From positions 1-64,000 of the forward strand of contig JAKSIF010000013.1 of assembly GCA_024398965.1 (NCBI GenBank): a stretch of 64,000 nt of DNA. Reading direction: 5' to 3'. This DNA comes from Fibrobacter sp. (lineage in GTDB: Bacteria > Fibrobacterota > Fibrobacteria > Fibrobacterales > Fibrobacteraceae). The position numbers and the translations under genes were made by a program. Below the pieces are notes generated by a model, which did no database searches, had not been told where the DNA came from, and worked only from the letters and a program-made list of their open reading frames with translations. Below, one piece after another: positions 27,390 through 45,081 of this stretch (positions are counted from its first letter, which is position 1; every line of letters starts with the position of its first letter).

Positions 27390-28838
27390 ATGAAGCATCC
27401 TTTTACAAAAAGTTTTATTGCGATTAGTGCACTGACTGTAGCAGGTCTTGTTGCATGCGGCGACGACTCCTCTACTCCTTCTGTCCCGCAGATTCCGAAC
27501 GATCCTAATGGCGGAATTGAAAATACTTTGCCGAACGATCCGTCCAATCCTGTGGTTGATCCTTCCGATCCGGGGAATACAAATCCTGGCGTTGGCGACG
27601 TTACTACCGATCCCAGCAATCCTAACACAGATCCGACTAATCCCGGCGTTGTCGATCCGGGTACCGGCGAAGTGATTCCTGGTACAGACCCTGTTCCGGG
27701 TTCTAGCGCTTCCAATCCAGGAACCGACCCTGTGGTTCCCGGTACAGATCCTGGCGTTAGCTCTAGCAGCACAGAACCTGTAAAGACCACCGGCAATCCT
27801 GAAGAAGATATCAAGAAGTATCCGGTGCCTACGCTCAAGAACATTCTTGGTAACGGGACCTCTGGCTGGAACACTCGCTACTGGGATGCCTGCAAGGCTC
27901 ACTGCTCCCAGACCAGTCTCGACGGTGCCGAAGGCAAGCCCAAGATTAATACCCAGGAAGAATACGCTGCCAGTCATTATACTGCCCGCGTCTGCAACAT
28001 CAACGACATTGAAATTCCGACCTTTACCTACAGCAAGGGCCTGGAACGTTACTGGGTTGGTATCCAGAATACTCCTAACGCCTGTCAGGAAGCTGATCCT
28101 GCAAGCGGTGGCGGCTTCACCTGTACCGACATGGCTCCGGTGGCAGTAAACGATACCTTGGCATACGCCTTCGTTGCCGGTAGCGATGCAACCACTTCTT
28201 GCGGTAAGTGCTTCCACTTGCAGTACGATGGTAGCTTCAAGGATGCCGACGGCAATAACGCCCCCAAGGAAACTCACAAGGCTCTTAAGGGTAAGCACAT
28301 CATCGTTATGGCCTCCAACATTGGTCACGATGTGAAGCCTGGTCAGTTCGACCTGATGGTTCCTGGTGGTGGTCCCGGAATCTTCAATGCCCTGCAGCTC
28401 CAGATTACTAAGCCGGGTATTGAATGGGGTGCTACCTATGGTGGCTTCCTGACCTATTGCCAGAATGGCGAACAGGTTGGTTACGATGGTTCCCTGGCTG
28501 ATTACCAGAAGTGCGTAAAGAACTTGTGCGATGCAGCCTTTGGCGATTCCAAGTATCCGAACTTGCTCCGTGGTTGCCATTGGTTTGCCGACTGGTACAT
28601 GACTGCAGATAATCCCACCTACCAGTGGGAAGAAGTGGAATGCCCCCAGTACCTGATTGACAAGTACTCCACCACCATCAGTACTTCTATTGAAACTAAG
28701 ATTTTGTATCAGTCCGACTGGTCTAAGTACAGTGGTGGCGACTTTATCGAAACCGATGCCTGCAGCAAGACTCCCAATGCAACAGGCGAATACTGCGACC
28801 CCGATCAGTTAGCTGCAGACAAGGCTAAGACCTACTAG
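27390..28838 (+). CDS. GH45 endoglucanase lipoprotein 1
   Basis: A 482-residue lipoprotein cellulase. The leader MKHPFTKSFIAISALTVAGLVAC-GDDSS has a lipobox; residues ~28-140 are a Pro/Asn/Asp/Thr-rich linker (DPSNPNTDPTNPG, GTDPVVPGTDPG) ending in SSSS; the GH45 catalytic domain covers ~150-440. The base Asp is in TRYWDACK (residue 166), and the acid Asp in GQFDLMVPGGGPG. Many cysteines suit the disulfide-rich Barwin-like fold. It cleaves internal beta-1,4-glucosidic bonds by inversion. AGAGG precedes the ATG. It is followed by a tandem paralogue after one base. The second-codon Gly after Cys suggests outer-membrane sorting. Confidence 0.93.
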   Translation: MKHPFTKSFIAISALTVAGLVACGDDSSTPSVPQIPNDPNGGIENTLPNDPSNPVVDPSDPGNTNPGVGDVTTDPSNPNTDPTNPGVVDPGTGEVIPGTDPVPGSSASNPGTDPVVPGTDPGVSSSSTEPVKTTGNPEEDIKKYPVPTLKNILGNGTSGWNTRYWDACKAHCSQTSLDGAEGKPKINTQEEYAASHYTARVCNINDIEIPTFTYSKGLERYWVGIQNTPNACQEADPASGGGFTCTDMAPVAVNDTLAYAFVAGSDATTSCGKCFHLQYDGSFKDADGNNAPKETHKALKGKHIIVMASNIGHDVKPGQFDLMVPGGGPGIFNALQLQITKPGIEWGATYGGFLTYCQNGEQVGYDGSLADYQKCVKNLCDAAFGDSKYPNLLRGCHWFADWYMTADNPTYQWEEVECPQYLIDKYSTTISTSIETKILYQSDWSKYSGGDFIETDACSKTPNATGEYCDPDQLAADKAKTY

Positions 28839-28839
28839 T

Positions 28840-30231
28840 ATGAAACATCCGTTTAAGAAAGGCTTTATCGCGATTAGCTCGCTGGCTGTAGCTTGCTTCG
28901 TTGCCTGTGGTGACGATTCTTCCACCAGTTCTCCTCAGGTAATTCCTGATCCGATAAGTAGCGCAACCATTGCTCCTGGTGACAATCAGGTTCCCGCTTC
29001 GTCCGGTTCTATTCCTGATCAGGGGGTTCCTGGCCCGAATAGTTCTGCGGCTGCGGCCGACCCTGGCAGCGCCGGTACCGTTGTTCCGGGATCCAGCGCT
29101 GAGGTAACTCCGGATGATCCGGGAACCGATCCTATGGTTCCTGGTAGTTCCGAAAGCCAGCCCTCTACTCCCGAGCTTGACGCCAATGGCTTCCCGACTA
29201 TCGAATCCTATGGCGCTCCTTCTCCGGAGTATACCAAGGATATTTCCGCTACCGCAAAGCGTGGTTGGAATACCCGTTACTGGGACGCCTGCAAGCCTCA
29301 CTGCTCCTGGCTTAGGGAAAGCCCAAACGACATCACTCGTGCGGATACTTCCTCCAACGAGGCTTTTGTAGCAAACCATGGCATTGCCCGTAATTGCAAT
29401 ATCCACGATGTGGAAGTTCCTGCCTTTACGCTTGGCAATGTGAACCCTTATGCGTTCAACTACGTAGGTACCCGTAGCGCTTGCGGCGATGAAAAGTCTG
29501 CTGGCGTATTCACCTGTACCGACATGGCTCCTATCGCAGTGAACGACACTCTTTCTTACGCTTACGTTGCTGGCACTGCCGACAGTAAGTGCGGTAAGTG
29601 CTATCACCTGCAGTACGACGGCCATTTCAAGGATGAATTCGAAATGAATCCGCCCAGGGACACCCACAAGGCCCTTAAGGGTAAGCATCTGGTGGTGATG
29701 GCTTCTAACATCGGTATGGACGTGGCTGGCGGTAATCCTAACCTGCCTGCAGGCCAGTTCGACCTGATGGTGCCGGGTGGTGGCGTTGGCGCCTTTGACG
29801 CTCTTTCTACTCAGGTAAACGGTGCTGGCATCAATTGGGGCGCAGGCTTTGGCGGCTTCCTCACGGAATGCCAGAACCAGCTGGGCTACGACAGCACTCT
29901 TGAAGCCTACCAGACCTGTATCAGGGACATGTGTGACGCTGCCTTCGGTAACTCCGGCCTGCCTAACTTGCTGCGCGGCTGCCACTGGTTTGCCGACTGG
30001 TACATGGCAGCGGACAATCCCACCTACTACATCGAGGAAGTGGAATGCCCCCAGTACCTGGTGGATCACTACATGAGCCGCATCAACACCACCGTTGAAA
30101 CCAACATCAAGAAACACGATGACTGGTCCACCTATCAGGAAGGCGATGTGCTGGATACCTTGCACTGCTGGGGACCTGGCGAAGGCCCTGACCCTTACAA
30201 CCCTGGTCGTGGTTGCGAAGCTAGTGAGTAA
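28840..30231 (+). CDS. GH45 endoglucanase lipoprotein 2
   Basis: A 463-residue paralogue of the preceding gene: leader MKHPFKKGFIAISSLAVACFVAC-GDDSS, a linker rich in Ser/Pro/Gly (SSATIAPGDNQVPASSG), then GH45 from ~140. Catalytic motifs TRYWDACKPHC and GQFDLMVPGGGVG are intact; the conserved C-terminal GCHWFADWYMAADNPTYYIEEVECPQYL is shared with gene 1. A short insertion (GGNPNLP) sits before the acid Asp. Only one base separates it from the upstream stop, and no good Shine-Dalgarno is seen, so reinitiation is likely. A terminator follows. Tandem duplication with gene 1 is evident. Confidence 0.93.
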   Translation: MKHPFKKGFIAISSLAVACFVACGDDSSTSSPQVIPDPISSATIAPGDNQVPASSGSIPDQGVPGPNSSAAAADPGSAGTVVPGSSAEVTPDDPGTDPMVPGSSESQPSTPELDANGFPTIESYGAPSPEYTKDISATAKRGWNTRYWDACKPHCSWLRESPNDITRADTSSNEAFVANHGIARNCNIHDVEVPAFTLGNVNPYAFNYVGTRSACGDEKSAGVFTCTDMAPIAVNDTLSYAYVAGTADSKCGKCYHLQYDGHFKDEFEMNPPRDTHKALKGKHLVVMASNIGMDVAGGNPNLPAGQFDLMVPGGGVGAFDALSTQVNGAGINWGAGFGGFLTECQNQLGYDSTLEAYQTCIRDMCDAAFGNSGLPNLLRGCHWFADWYMAADNPTYYIEEVECPQYLVDHYMSRINTTVETNIKKHDDWSTYQEGDVLDTLHCWGPGEGPDPYNPGRGCEASE

Positions 30232-39884: not shown

Positions 39885-41594
39885 TTAGAACTTGTTCTTG
39901 AGTGCGGCGGGGCATTCCACTTCCTGGTATTCGTGAGTGGGGTTTCCTGCTGCTTCGTACCAGGTAGCAAGGAACATGCAGCCTTCCTTAGCTACGGGGT
40001 CGTTGCTGAAGGTCTTGTTGCACTTGTTGGCGAGGCATTCCTTACGCTTGGTCAGAAGGTCACCGCTGTAACCAACTTCCTTTTCGCAATCGGTCAGGAG
40101 GCCGCCGTAGGTAGCGCCCATGTCGCCCCAACCCATATTGCGGCAGCCGTTGAACAAGCCGACGCCACCGCCCGGGATCATGATGTCGAACTGACCCTGG
40201 GACACGTCAGCACCAACGTTGGAGGTCATCACGATGAGGGTCTTGCCTGCCAGGGCCTTGTGGTTGGCCTTGGTTTCGTACTTGCCCTTGCCGGTAAACT
40301 TCAGGGCGTAGCACTTACCGCAGGATGCGCCGTCAGCTGCAGGAACAGCGGCGTAGGCGTAAGCCAGCTTGTCGTTTACGACCATAGGAATCTGGCTGGT
40401 GCAGGTACCGGAGTTACCGCCGTCGCACATGCTGGTTGCGCCGTCATCAGAAATCTTGTTGCCCTTGGCATCGCAGGCGGTTGCCTTGATGCCGCCCTTG
40501 CCGGGCCATGCGCAGTGGGGCTTACAGCAGTCCCAGTAACGGGTTGCCCAACCAGAACCGCTCTTGCCGCCAGCAACCGGCTTGATGTCGGTGCCTGCAG
40601 CGGTGTTGCCGTAGCTGTAGCTGCTCATGGGCTGGGCAGAGGAGCTGGAGGACTTGGGCTGCACAACCTGCTGGCTGCTAGAAGACTTTTGCTGCTGCTG
40701 GCTGCTGGAGGACTTGGCAACGGAGCTGGAGGACTTCTGCTGCTGTTGCTGACTGCTGGAGGACTGTTGCTGGTTGTTATTGTTGCTGCTGCCAGACTTT
40801 GCAGTAACGTTCAGTACAATTTCGTAGTCCTTGCCTTCGACCTTGAAGAATTCAGAGGTTTCGCCAGTCTGGAAGTATTCAGGAACGGTAATGGCCTTGA
40901 TGGTATAGGTGCCATTGCTATAGCTGGTTTCCAGGAAGTAGGCGTTCCAGGAAAGGCGGGAAGGTTCGTAGGAAAGACCGCTGAACTTGATTTCGCCGGT
41001 GGAGGCGTTCTGGGCTACGGTCTGCTTAAGGTTACCGGTAATGGTCACGTTGCCGTCTGTAGTTACTTCCTGCTTTACAGAGGAAGAGCTCTTGGGCTGT
41101 TCCACGGAGGAGCTAGACTTGGGGGTGTCTACGTTGGCGCTAGACTTCGGAGTCGTATCTACAGAGGAGGAAGATGCCGGAGTCTCGACTGTTGTGCTGC
41201 TGGCAGGAACTGCCGGAGCGACCATGGCTTCGACGGTAGCCTGGGTTGCAACGGGAAGTGCTTCCAGAGCTACGTTTTCCTGGAGAACGGTTGTGCCGTT
41301 TGCTGCCAGGATGGAACCCGTTGCTGCATCATAGGTGCCTACGGGGAATCCGTTTTCGTCATAGACGATCATGCTCTGGTTAATGATGAGATTCTTGTCG
41401 CCCTTCAGGACCCAGCATGCCTCGCCGCAGGCGTTTGCCACGGGAGATTCAGTGGTCTGGCCAGGATTGGTGTTATCACCGATCTGGGTGTCGTTTACGT
41501 TGGGGAGAGTGGTGGTCGTTGTGTCGTCGCCGCAGTTCAGCAAGGCAAGTGCGGAACTGAGAACAAGGACGGACTTCAAAAAAGGAGCTTTCAT
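39885..41594 (-). CDS. GH45 endoglucanase lipoprotein 3, multi-module
   Basis: About 569 residues. Start ATG 41594 has GAGGATAGTT upstream and a leader ending ALALLNC-GDD. Order of parts: a ~50-residue N-terminal module (ACWVLKGDKN...YDENGFPVGTYDAATGSI), a Ser/Thr/Pro linker, an all-beta domain (~190-270, GNVTITGNLKQTVAQ...YEIVLNVTAK), a Gln/Ser linker with QQQ and SSSS runs, and the GH45 domain (~365-565). Active-site motifs TRYWDCCKPHCAW and GQFDIMIPGGGVG are intact. The C-terminal pattern GCMFLATWYEAAGNP is shared with genes 4 and 5. Monocistronic between terminators. Confidence 0.92.
   Translation of the reverse strand: MKAPFLKSVLVLSSALALLNCGDDTTTTTLPNVNDTQIGDNTNPGQTTESPVANACGEACWVLKGDKNLIINQSMIVYDENGFPVGTYDAATGSILAANGTTVLQENVALEALPVATQATVEAMVAPAVPASSTTVETPASSSSVDTTPKSSANVDTPKSSSSVEQPKSSSSVKQEVTTDGNVTITGNLKQTVAQNASTGEIKFSGLSYEPSRLSWNAYFLETSYSNGTYTIKAITVPEYFQTGETSEFFKVEGKDYEIVLNVTAKSGSSNNNNQQQSSSSQQQQQKSSSSVAKSSSSQQQQKSSSSQQVVQPKSSSSSAQPMSSYSYGNTAAGTDIKPVAGGKSGSGWATRYWDCCKPHCAWPGKGGIKATACDAKGNKISDDGATSMCDGGNSGTCTSQIPMVVNDKLAYAYAAVPAADGASCGKCYALKFTGKGKYETKANHKALAGKTLIVMTSNVGADVSQGQFDIMIPGGGVGLFNGCRNMGWGDMGATYGGLLTDCEKEVGYSGDLLTKRKECLANKCNKTFSNDPVAKEGCMFLATWYEAAGNPTHEYQEVECPAALKNKF
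40620..40790. repeat. CTG/CAG-rich low-complexity coding repeat
   Basis: The Gln/Ser linker of GH45 gene 3 is encoded by many CTGCTG, TTGCTG and GGAGGA units with frequent near-identical 12-21 base blocks. Such tracts change length by slippage or recombination. Confidence 0.7.
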
Positions 41595-41729
41595 AACTAT
41601 CCTCAATAAAATACTAACGAGACTTCCCGAAGAAAGTCCTTCCAATTCCATCGACTAAAAGATAGTTTTTTTGAAAATTTCTTGTAGGTAAATTTTTGTT
41701 TGTCATAGAGTTATGAGACTTTTGTCACA

Positions 41730-41762
41730 AAAAAAGGCTCCAAGCCGAAGCTGGAGCCTTTA
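41730..41762 (-). terminator. Terminator of GH45 gene 4
   Basis: Minus strand: AAGGCTCCAG-CTTCGG-CTTGGAGCCTT, then TTTTTT. It lies about 20 bases after the stop at 41783. Confidence 0.9.
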
Positions 41763-41782
41763 AATTCGGAAACAATCCCTGA

Positions 41783-43432
41783 TTAGTACTTTGCTGCAAG
41801 TGCTGCGGGGCATTCCACTTGCACAAACTCAATTTCGGGGTTATTGGCTGCTTCCATCCAGTTTGCAAGGAACAGACAGCCGTTTCTCAGGCTTTCGTTA
41901 GAGTATTCGGAGTTGCACATCTTGATGAGGCAGCTCTTGTCGTAGTTACAGGTGGTGAGGAATCCGCCGTACTGTGCGCCTGCGCAGGAGATGCCCATCT
42001 TGCCGCAGCCATTGAATGCGCCGGGGCCGCCACCGGGGATCATCAGGTCAAACTGGTTGTGGCTTACGTCGTAACCGATGTTGCTGGACATGACAATCAG
42101 GTGCTTGCCCTTAATCTTTCTGTGGTGATCGTCGGTGGGTGTGTTTGTGGCAGAAGCGCCGGTGCCCTTGAAGGTCAGCATGTAGCACTTGCCACAGTCG
42201 TTGCCGCCACCGGGTGTGGCTGCGAATGCGTAGGCGATTGTGTCGTTCACGATTTGCGGGGTCTGGTCAAAGCAGGTACCTGCGTTACCGCCGTCACAAA
42301 CGGAGGATGCTCCGGAACTAGCCTTGCTCATACCATCTGCGTTACAAGTTCTTGCCACAGGTCCGCCCTTGCCTTCCCATGCGCAATGAGGCTTGCAGCT
42401 GTCCCAGTAACGGGTTGCGTAGCCGGTCTTCTTGTTGTTGTCAATGATCTTGGGCAACAGGGAGGCTCCGCCTTGCTGCTGGTTATTCTGCTGCTGGCTG
42501 GAGGAAGACGGCTGCCACTGCTGCTGAGAGCTGGAAGACTTCGGCTGCTGCTGGCTGCTGGAGGATTTCTGTTGTTGCTGTTGCTGACTGCTGGAGGACT
42601 GCTGTTGCTGCTGGTTGTTGCCAGTGCTTGTTCCGATGGAGGCGCAGTTCTTGCCTGCCGGGTCATAATAGCAGTTGATGGAGCAGTCTTCCTTGTATGC
42701 GTAAGATTCGCCGTTCTTGCCAGTGAGGTTATCGTAGGGCTTTACATTCTTATTGGAAACCTTGTCGAGGCAGGTTCCCTGTCCGCCCTGCTGTTGGTTA
42801 TTCTGCTGGCTGCTGGAGGATTGCTGTTGCTGCTGGTTGTTATCCTGCTGCTTGCTGGAAGAGCTTGCCTGCTGGTTCTGGTTGTTGACAGAAGAAGAGG
42901 AAGCAATCGGCTGCGTCTGCTGGTTGTTTCCGTTGCCAATGCTGGAGGAGCTGACCGGAGGGGTGACAATTGCAGAGGATGCAGGAGTTGTCGGGACAAT
43001 AGAAGCGGAGGAGTTTGCGGGTACGTCCGGTGTCGTGGGGACGTTGGGGTTGTTAGGTGTAGTCGACGGTGTCAAGACAGGAAGAACCGATACGTCTACG
43101 CCCATGGCTGTAGTGTTGCCGCTCGCATCGGTGATGGCCTGGGTTGTGGGATCGTAGGAGCCTATCGGGTTGCCGTTGGCGTCGCTTACGACATTGTCGG
43201 TACCGATCAGCAGGTAGCCCTGTTCTGTCTGGATAACCCAGCACGGTGCGCTGACGTCAATAGTGGTTGTGGAACCATCGGGATTGATGATTGTGTTGTT
43301 GCCCTGGATCACCACCTGACCGGATTGGTTGGGGATGTTCGGCAAGGAAGTTGCGATGTCTTCATCTCCGCAGTTCATCAGAGCCAATGCTGCGCTGATA
43401 ACCAAGGCTGATTTCAAAAACGGGTGCTTCAT
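41783..43432 (-). CDS. GH45 endoglucanase lipoprotein 4, multi-module
   Basis: A 549-residue paralogue. Leader MKHPFLKSALVISAALALMNC-GDED, the same N-terminal module as gene 3 (PCWVIQTEQG...VVSDANGNPIGSYDPTTQAI), a Thr/Pro/Ser linker, Gln/Ser runs, a small cysteine segment (TCLDKVSNKNVKPYDN...CSINCYYDPAGKNC, ~215-265), more Gln/Ser runs, and the GH45 domain (~345-545). Active-site motifs are TRYWDSCKPHCAW and NQFDLMIPGGGPG. AAAGGATTCGT precedes the ATG. The small Cys segment is unique to this paralogue; it could be a minimal binding module. Confidence 0.92.
   Translation of the reverse strand: MKHPFLKSALVISAALALMNCGDEDIATSLPNIPNQSGQVVIQGNNTIINPDGSTTTIDVSAPCWVIQTEQGYLLIGTDNVVSDANGNPIGSYDPTTQAITDASGNTTAMGVDVSVLPVLTPSTTPNNPNVPTTPDVPANSSASIVPTTPASSAIVTPPVSSSSIGNGNNQQTQPIASSSSVNNQNQQASSSSKQQDNNQQQQQSSSSQQNNQQQGGQGTCLDKVSNKNVKPYDNLTGKNGESYAYKEDCSINCYYDPAGKNCASIGTSTGNNQQQQQSSSSQQQQQQKSSSSQQQPKSSSSQQQWQPSSSSQQQNNQQQGGASLLPKIIDNNKKTGYATRYWDSCKPHCAWEGKGGPVARTCNADGMSKASSGASSVCDGGNAGTCFDQTPQIVNDTIAYAFAATPGGGNDCGKCYMLTFKGTGASATNTPTDDHHRKIKGKHLIVMSSNIGYDVSHNQFDLMIPGGGPGAFNGCGKMGISCAGAQYGGFLTTCNYDKSCLIKMCNSEYSNESLRNGCLFLANWMEAANNPEIEFVQVECPAALAAKY
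42440..42960. repeat. CTG/CAG-rich low-complexity coding repeats
   Basis: Two Gln/Ser linkers of GH45 gene 4 (about 42440-42625 and 42770-42960), made of CTGCTGTTG and GGAGGA units with blocks such as CTGCTGGAGGATTTCTGTTG repeated with small changes. The cysteine segment lies between them. Confidence 0.7.
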
Positions 43433-43570
43433 ACGAATCCTTTATGTATATCCAAAAAATCGGTTTTCCGTGAAAACCTACCCAATCATTCCGCTCCTAA
43501 AATATTCTCTTGCTTGAAAAATTGCACGTAAAATTTTGTAACCTAACGAGATACGAGAGTTTCATCACAC

Positions 43571-43602
43571 AAAAAAAGCCCCGCAATGACTTGCGGGACT
43601 TA
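43571..43602 (-). terminator. Terminator of GH45 gene 5
   Basis: Minus strand: AAGTCCCGCAAGTCATTGCGGGGCTT followed by TTTTT. A second dyad, CCAGGGGGCGGAGCCTCCTGG-like, and CTCTCGGAGAGAG lie between it and the stop at 43663. Confidence 0.85.
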
Positions 43603-43662
43603 AATGCAGACGCTCTCGGAGAGAGCTTAGGAGTCCAGGGGGCGGAGCCTCCTGGGGCGTTA

Positions 43663-45081
43663 TTAGAACTTGTCGAGCAGTTCCTTGGGGCATTCCACTT
43701 CCTTGTAGTTGTGAAGCGGGTTGCCTGCTGCGTTCATCCAGTTGGCGAGGAAGAGGCAGCCTTCCTTGGCGACCGGGTCGCTGGAGAAGGAAGAGTTGCA
43801 CTTGTTTGTGAGGCAGCTCTTGTAGGTGCTTGCCTTGTAGCCGGAGGATTCTTCGCATTCAGTCAGGAGTCCGCCGTAGCGTGCGCCCTGGGAGCCCCAG
43901 CCCATCTTGGCGGAGCAACCGTCGAAGATGCCGAAACCACCACCCGGGATCATCACGTCGAACTGACCTGCTTCCACGTCGTAGCCGATGTTGGAGGCGA
44001 TCACGATCAGGTGCTTGCCTTTAAGCTTTGCGTGGTTGTCGGTTGCGTACTTACCCTTGCCGGTAAAGGCGAGGTCGAAGCACTTGCCGCACTGGCCGCC
44101 AGCGCTGCCGGGAACAGCTGCAAAAGCAAATGCGATGGTGTCGTTGTATACGATAGGAATCTGGCTCTTGCAGGTGCCGGCATTACCGCCGTCGCACATG
44201 GAAGTTGCGCCGTCATCGTTAATCTTGTTTCCGCTTGCGTCGCAGGCGTGGGCCTTCAGGCCGCCCTTGTCGGGCCATGCGCAGTGAGGCTTGCAGCAGT
44301 CCCAGTAACGGGTTGCCCAACCGGAACCGCTTGCACCGCCGTTTACGTACTTGATGGTGTAGCTTCCGCCGTTGCTTCCGCCCTGGCTGCTAGAAGACTT
44401 TGCAACAGAACTGGAGGACTTTGCGACAGAGCTAGAAGACATTGTCACGGAGCTGGAGGAACGTGTCTGGCTGCTGGAGCTTACCGGGGTAAATTCGCCA
44501 GGTACGTAGGGCTCGTTGGGGGTGGGGTCTGCGACGGAGCTGCTGGAGGGTTCCGGAGCCTTCACGTTGGATTCGTAAACCTTGAGGGTCATCACGTCGA
44601 TCTTATCGACAGCGACGCTTCCGTCCAGCAGAGTGATTGTTCCGATGGTGGTCTCGGGCTGGAAGGTGATGATGCCGACGGGGGTGCCACTTGCATCGGT
44701 TACGGAGCCGTCGGTATAAATGACATAGTTGGTGCTGTCAGACTTCATAACCCAGGCGGTGGAAGTGATGACCGTGGGCTGGATAACCTGAAGCTGGGTG
44801 AAGTCGACGCCAGTAGCGATTTCAGTCATGTCCATTGCGAGAATGCGTCCGCCGGCGATATCGGCTGCGCCGATGGTATCGCCCTTAGCGTTGGTGACGA
44901 GACCGTTCTGGGCGACGATGTACTGTTCACCACCCTTTTCAAAAAGGAAGGAGGCTTCGTCTACGACGATAGCTTCGTTGGAGGGGGTACTACTGCTACC
45001 TGTGGGATTTTCGTCGCCACAGCTGCAAACCATCAATAGGGCGCCTGCTGCGAGCAAGCTCTTTAAAAATGGAGATTTCAT
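43663..45081 (-). CDS. GH45 endoglucanase lipoprotein 5 with duplicated N-terminal module
   Basis: A 472-residue paralogue: leader MKSPFLKSLLAAGALLMVCSC-GDEN; two copies of the N-terminal module (~35-85, FLFEKGGEQYIVAQNGLVTNAKGDTIGAADIAGGRI; and ~90-150, AWVMKSDSTNYVIYTDGSVTDASGTPVGIITF); a SSSSV linker; GH45 domain (~255-470). Active-site motifs TRYWDCCKPHCAW and GQFDVMIPGGGFG are intact. AAGGACGCAT precedes the ATG. Closest in sequence to gene 3 by the WATRYWDCCKPHCAWP block. Monocistronic. Confidence 0.92.
   Translation of the reverse strand: MKSPFLKSLLAAGALLMVCSCGDENPTGSSSTPSNEAIVVDEASFLFEKGGEQYIVAQNGLVTNAKGDTIGAADIAGGRILAMDMTEIATGVDFTQLQVIQPTVITSTAWVMKSDSTNYVIYTDGSVTDASGTPVGIITFQPETTIGTITLLDGSVAVDKIDVMTLKVYESNVKAPEPSSSSVADPTPNEPYVPGEFTPVSSSSQTRSSSSVTMSSSSVAKSSSSVAKSSSSQGGSNGGSYTIKYVNGGASGSGWATRYWDCCKPHCAWPDKGGLKAHACDASGNKINDDGATSMCDGGNAGTCKSQIPIVYNDTIAFAFAAVPGSAGGQCGKCFDLAFTGKGKYATDNHAKLKGKHLIVIASNIGYDVEAGQFDVMIPGGGFGIFDGCSAKMGWGSQGARYGGLLTECEESSGYKASTYKSCLTNKCNSSFSSDPVAKEGCLFLANWMNAAGNPLHNYKEVECPKELLDKF

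Follow-up and report, generated by a model that had tools for sequence, protein, structure and literature searches.

Fibrobacter has no cellulosomes, and most of its cellulases carry no recognisable carbohydrate-binding modules (CBMs); the protein module described here bears on how it nevertheless degrades crystalline cellulose. In F. succinogenes S85, two GH45 proteins, FSU_1893 and FSU_1947, were reported in the cell-envelope proteome (PMC6851124). Among the closest described systems are the beta-flowers, which have [DNEQ]xxG motifs at their hairpin tips, include half-flowers, and in some members carry lipoprotein motifs (PMC10584680). A second hairpin-repeat family is DUF3659, for which a literature search gave no paper and which is itself without known function. 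We found no paper that describes the present module, and the papers on Fibrobacter GH45 that we found, in their available parts, are silent on it.

The stretch of DNA analysed (the window) comprises 64,000 nucleotides of contig 13 from a Fibrobacter sp. genome of 3.59 Mb. It contains all five GH45 genes of this genome, each of which is headed by a lipoprotein signal. Genes 3, 4 and 5 have in common a module of ~65 residues, with the lipobox on its N-terminal side and a Ser/Gln-rich linker on its C-terminal side. Alignment of the N-termini reveals four copies, including a tandem pair in gene 5. The features are as follows.

27390..28838, forward strand: gene 1, GH45 lipoprotein that lacks the module and has a Pro/Asp-rich linker in its place
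28840..30231, forward strand: gene 2, GH45 lipoprotein, likewise lacking the module, with a Pro/Asp-rich stretch instead
39885..41651, reverse strand: gene 3, GH45 lipoprotein, lipobox ...LLNC-GDD (PF02015, E 1.7e-33)
41241..41438, reverse strand: module copy of gene 3, at residues 72-137 in the ORF as called, which has 588 aa (profile E 2.9e-31 including itself, 6e-20 without the window rows)
41783..43432, reverse strand: gene 4, GH45 lipoprotein, lipobox ...LMNC-GDE (PF02015, E 2.4e-33)
43064..43267, reverse strand: module copy of gene 4, residues 56-123 (profile matches; AF2 model of this copy)
43663..45081, reverse strand: gene 5, GH45 lipoprotein, lipobox ...VCSC-GDE (PF02015, E 9.9e-33)
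44773..44976, reverse strand: module copy 5a of gene 5, residues 36-103 (profile matches; within the AF2 tandem model)
44569..44775, reverse strand: module copy 5b of gene 5, at residues 103-171 and forming a tandem with 5a (profile matches; AF2 tandem model)

The listed ORF of gene 3 likely starts 19 codons too early, with Met20 (about 41594) opening an MKAPFLKS signal peptide of a type that is common to genes 4 and 5. Many mature N-termini among the GH45 lipoproteins of the window and of L120-L195 begin with C-[GST]-[DE]-[DE], a start reminiscent of the acidic signal for lipoprotein export in Bacteroidetes.

Each unit proceeds from a W/F-hydrophobic strand through a Y-x-I strand, a V-x-D-x-x-G-x-x-I/V-G hairpin and a G-x-I...D-G-x-x-I hairpin to a closing V-D-x-x-x-L-P. 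Across 54 modules, conservation is seen at hydrophobic residues of the strands and at Gly and Asp residues of the turns, with an aromatic residue at position 16 (W/Y/F/H16) in every copy and at Y24 in most. The module is acidic, with a median pI of about 4, and almost devoid of Lys and Arg. In the whole genome, a profile built from the window copies matches these four and no others. Models derived solely from the modules of other genomes detect gene 3 at E 6e-20, gene 4 at 3e-19 and gene 5 at 4e-37, and those derived solely from stand-alone relatives reach 3.5e-5, 1.8e-8 and 2.5e-8, respectively. Leave-one-out models recover gene 3 at 2e-10 and gene 4 at 5e-11, and give only 20-25 bits for each gene 5 copy. 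The best of 900 shuffled N-termini came to an E-value of about 0.2 when searched with the outside models, and to 0.03 in one of the leave-one-out searches. Given their low bit scores and this last decoy, the gene 5 copies have the least support among the four when judged by the window alone.

A first-pass annotation of this DNA had proposed a module of ~50 residues at about residues 40-110 of genes 3, 4 and 5, just past the membrane anchor, and none in genes 1 and 2. Its three carriers and its placement after the anchor are borne out (outside-genome models at E 1e-19 to 1e-37 compared with about 0.2 for the best decoy), as is the absence from genes 1 and 2, in which a Pro/Asp-rich stretch is found instead. 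The unit proved longer than proposed, the three carriers hold four copies because of the tandem in gene 5, and the location is corrected to residues 72-137 (gene 3 as called), 56-123 (gene 4) and 36-171 (gene 5).

Other unnamed segments are present in the same proteins. In gene 3, residues 200-289 (40785-41054, reverse strand; GNVTITGNLKQTVAQNAS...EFFKVEGKDYEIVLNV) form a second unnamed module with the linker on one side and GH45 on the other. This segment is found in 15 of 74 GH45 proteins that were chosen by catalytic domain, a set introduced below, and was seen by eye twice in an 847-aa GH45 protein of L055. In gene 4, a Cys-containing module of ~50 residues (residues 219-270; 42623-42778, reverse strand; CLDKVSNKNVKPYDNLTGKNGESYAYKEDCSINCYYDPAGKNC) lies within the Ser/Gln linker. 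It occurs in 23 of the 74 proteins and has no Pfam match.

In a search of 168 Fibrobacterota genomes with an alignment of 54 module rows (A3), 90 give a match at E <= 0.001. Every one of these belongs to the family of the window, and together they represent genus g1 (nearly all of the genus) along with g2, g3, g4 and g10, and the same search gave no match in Fibrobacterota outside this family. The profile search that had been proposed as a check thus returns a real family that is genus-wide in Fibrobacter. For GH45 proteins specifically, we assembled 74 sequences with intact starts, chosen by catalytic domain and not by module from the best 80 matches to the window GH45 proteins, and therefore biased to close relatives. 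Named relatives in this search include Fibrobacter sp. from horse faeces, UBA1765, F. intestinalis and F. succinogenes MAGs. At least one module copy is present in 66 of the 74 and two or more in 34, the number on GH45 proteins ranging from one to three, and the median distance from the lipobox Cys to the first module residue is 25 residues. The remaining eight were counted as lacking the module, among them L191, which by eye has similar hairpin repeats, and the distant L194 and L195. Some proteins of the set have the linker and no module. In sister genera, GH45 proteins of the gene 1/2 type (L090, L091, L098, L118) bear either the module or hairpin repeats, so genes 1 and 2 may have lost it.

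The module is also present on proteins other than GH45. Many Fibrobacter genomes carry a stand-alone lipoprotein of ~120 aa, in which a short spacer joins the signal peptide to a single module. Its gene is syntenic, with a divergent ~403-aa gene on one side and, from sequence inspection, an RNA methyltransferase-like gene on the other. A dN/dS of 0.09 over 78 pairs shows strong purifying selection on this lipoprotein; the module copies of the gene 5 type yield values of 0.35 and 0.32 from few pairs. The stand-alone genes L041-L054 have no counterpart in the window's own genome. In addition, the module is found on Fib_succ_major lipoproteins, of which L096 and L110 are confirmed by Pfam and L031 was judged by eye. 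Its presence on both of these other carriers indicates a transferable unit that is independent of GH45 catalysis.

The module is predicted to be a compact all-beta domain in which three beta-hairpins, each with a short tip of the [DNEQ]xxG type, are followed by a V-D-x-x-x-L-P closing turn. The AF2 model of the single gene 4 module has six strands (pLDDT 74.5, pTM 0.57), with residue blocks 11-70 at pLDDT 74-90. The model of the gene 5 tandem is all-beta with high confidence (pLDDT 95.7, pTM 0.81) and comprises about 12-13 strands; both halves show the same strand order, and V-D-x-x-x-L forms a short helix. This outcome answers the earlier suggestion of a structure prediction with a confident fold that has no significant PDB match. 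Foldseek (PDB/BFVD) and VIA-align, run with the single and tandem models, returned no significant PDB or viral structure match, and the Foldseek match to the Tubby-like protein 1zxu (E 0.53) is below significance. Two candidates were rejected. Sialidases gave the best VIA-align Z of 4.6 over one module, which is within the range of common arrangements, and ComZ (6qvi), the best PDB sequence-profile match (E 0.013 over 25 residues), was read as a hairpin resemblance.

Searches with Pfam and NCBIfam gave no consistent match to the 54 module copies, and the window copies reach no curated cut-off in either collection. A connection emerges through intermediate sequences. Four Fibrobacter GH45 proteins (L228, L230, L231, L233) have N-terminal repeats at the place of the module that match A3 at 5e-11 to 7e-10 and Bflower_2 at E 1.4e-4 to 7e-3 over 43-77 residues. 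In hhalign comparisons, A3 aligns with these repeats at 96% (E 2.6e-9) and the repeats align with Fibrobacterota Bflower_2 proteins at 95.8% (E 7e-9), although the intermediate alignment in this chain consists of four close sequences only. A3 compared directly with the Bflower_2 proteins gives only 18%, and unrelated controls give <1%. Against Bflower_2 itself (PF21785, gathering score 38 bits), the window tandem is unmatched at E<=1 and the best GH45 N-terminus scores 22.1 bits. For DUF3659 (PF12396, cut-off 24.8 bits), the genus g3 GH45 protein L098 is the sole one to reach the cut-off, at exactly 24.8 bits, and the window tandem stays below it with 15.4 bits at most over 19 residues. A canonical beta-flower protein also matches DUF3659, at 2.8e-4. 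Moreover, the 54 modules contain 103 [DNEQ]xxG motifs versus 61.9 +/- 6.9 in shuffles (maximum 80), and these motifs coincide with the hairpin tips predicted in the AF2 models.

On the strength of the intermediate-sequence alignments, L098 at the DUF3659 cut-off and the [DNEQ]xxG excess, we interpret the module as distantly related to the beta-flower and DUF3659 hairpin repeats, without assigning it to either family. The sequence comparisons support a distant, three-hairpin variant of these hairpin repeats that forms a Fibrobacteraceae-specific offshoot, with the counterpoint that short D-x-x-G hairpins may look alike through convergence. The first-pass annotation had called the module unrecognised, a view that its placement in a known domain family by a profile search would have refuted. 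The label holds for the window copies, which are under every Pfam cut-off and belong to no Pfam or NCBIfam family, but needs to be qualified in view of GH45 N-termini of related species that match DUF3659 at the cut-off or Bflower_2 below it and are linked to the module by profile comparison.

A separate observation is a near-identical, cytoplasm-like 114-aa protein of several Fibrobacter species (L223-L227), which has six 'KEYYGKTLYEIDGDK' repeats and a hydrophobic helix at its end. It scores 30-33 bits with Bflower_2, below the cut-off.

Our preferred explanation, to which we assign a probability of about 0.5, is that this beta-flower/DUF3659-type offshoot acts as a membrane-proximal docking and spacer domain of GH45 cellulases. 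Placed once or twice (six hairpins when twice) straight after the lipid anchor, the module would fold beside the outer membrane and pack against a second copy. In gene 5 the partner would lie in the same chain, and elsewhere it could possibly be provided by a second enzyme or by the stand-alone lipoprotein. The catalytic domain would then be presented at the tip of the flexible Ser/Gln linker. The surface location of these proteins, the docking and spacer function and the pairing are all inferred. In a more specific form, which we consider quite doubtful, the three-hairpin module would be one half of a six-hairpin flower. Gene 5 would hold both halves, and single-module enzymes and the stand-alone lipoprotein would pair to build GH45 surface clusters without cohesin and dockerin. 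Two arguments for pairing were discarded. An even number of modules per genome is not a useful requirement because homodimers fit any count, and the rise in AF2 scores from the single module (74.5/0.57) to the tandem (95.7/0.81) involves models that differ in their alignments and disordered tails.

Docking and spacing are favoured over substrate binding because the position next to the membrane is fixed, the module occurs with different cargo and in a stand-alone form, and the conserved residues are structural rather than charged or catalytic-looking. Nevertheless, a cellulose-related role also fits, since in this genome the module is confined to GH45 proteins. A new CBM that binds cellulose or hemicellulose chains, offsetting the missing recognisable CBMs on Fibrobacter cellulases, might also account for the aromatic residues at position 16 and, mostly, at Y24. 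S85 cellulases are described as lacking recognisable crystalline-cellulose CBMs and mostly lacking any CBM, and CBM-only proteins exist (PMC3079729). We regard this explanation as possible but unlikely, given that the module adjoins the membrane anchor and is separated from the catalytic domain by a long linker, that Fib_succ_major and stand-alone lipoproteins carry it too, and that no CBM family is among the Pfam matches of the 54 copies. The first-pass annotation had offered a stalk, surface docking or substrate binding, and position, other carriers and structural conservation favour the first two, as far as sequence alone can decide.

A passive stalk, whose repeats would extend the reach from membrane to enzyme with no binding partner, is unlikely. 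Variation in copy number from one to three, fast divergence of the GH45-linked copies (dN/dS 0.32-0.35) and the low-complexity linker that follows are consistent with it, but the one-copy stand-alone lipoprotein is strongly constrained without having any cargo to hold off the membrane, and the linker also occurs in some GH45 proteins that have no module. It is very improbable that the module is a sorting or export determinant recognised by the lipoprotein transport machinery. Its position straight after the lipobox and the C-[GST]-[DE]-[DE] start of many mature proteins would suit such a role, yet three carriers in this genome are too few for a general sorting signal, and the module-free GH45 lipoproteins of genes 1 and 2 do not differ from the carriers in lipobox or acidic start. 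Scarcely credible is the view that there is no true domain but a compositional resemblance of linker-like sequence, as might be suspected for an acidic, Lys/Arg-poor and Thr/Asp/Gly-rich segment. This view, and the low-complexity noise that the first-pass annotation had named as a refutation, are contradicted by the independent models, the shuffled decoys, the low dN/dS and the predicted fold (pLDDT 96).

The module probably contributes to keeping the GH45 enzymes at the cell surface. Being conserved, unnamed, membrane-proximal and present on most GH45 cellulases as well as alone, it offers a small and concrete target of 65-140 residues, and it connects the beta-flower/DUF3659 repeats, which are poorly understood, with a family of enzymes. 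Among known domains, the PRC-barrel (PF05239) has weak local profile similarity to the module through two PDB entries (E 0.6-0.9), and was rejected as a relative with only 0.45% in hhalign against Fibrobacterota PRC domains. The basic terminal domain (BTD) is likewise a Fibrobacter domain attached to carbohydrate-active enzymes (PMC3079729, PMC6851124). However, the two BTDs with stated positions are on the C-terminal side (PMC6851124), whereas our module is N-terminal and acidic with a median pI of 4. The beta-flower family PF21785 (Bflower_2, clan CL0395) shares with the module short antiparallel hairpins and [DNEQ]xxG tips, and some of its members are lipoproteins or half-flower-like (PMC10584680). 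Unlike these, the module unit consists of three hairpins and a V-D-x-x-x-L-P turn and is acidic with almost no Lys or Arg. The defining architecture of a beta-flower is a closed, shallow barrel in which 8, 10 or 12 short strands are arranged in four-, five- or sixfold symmetry, and the comparison with the module covers the number of strands, about 12-13 in the tandem model. With DUF3659 (PF12396) it shares the hairpin repeat G-x-V-x-D-x-x-G-x-x-I-G. The window copies are best read as an unnamed, distant variant of an already known kind of hairpin repeat.
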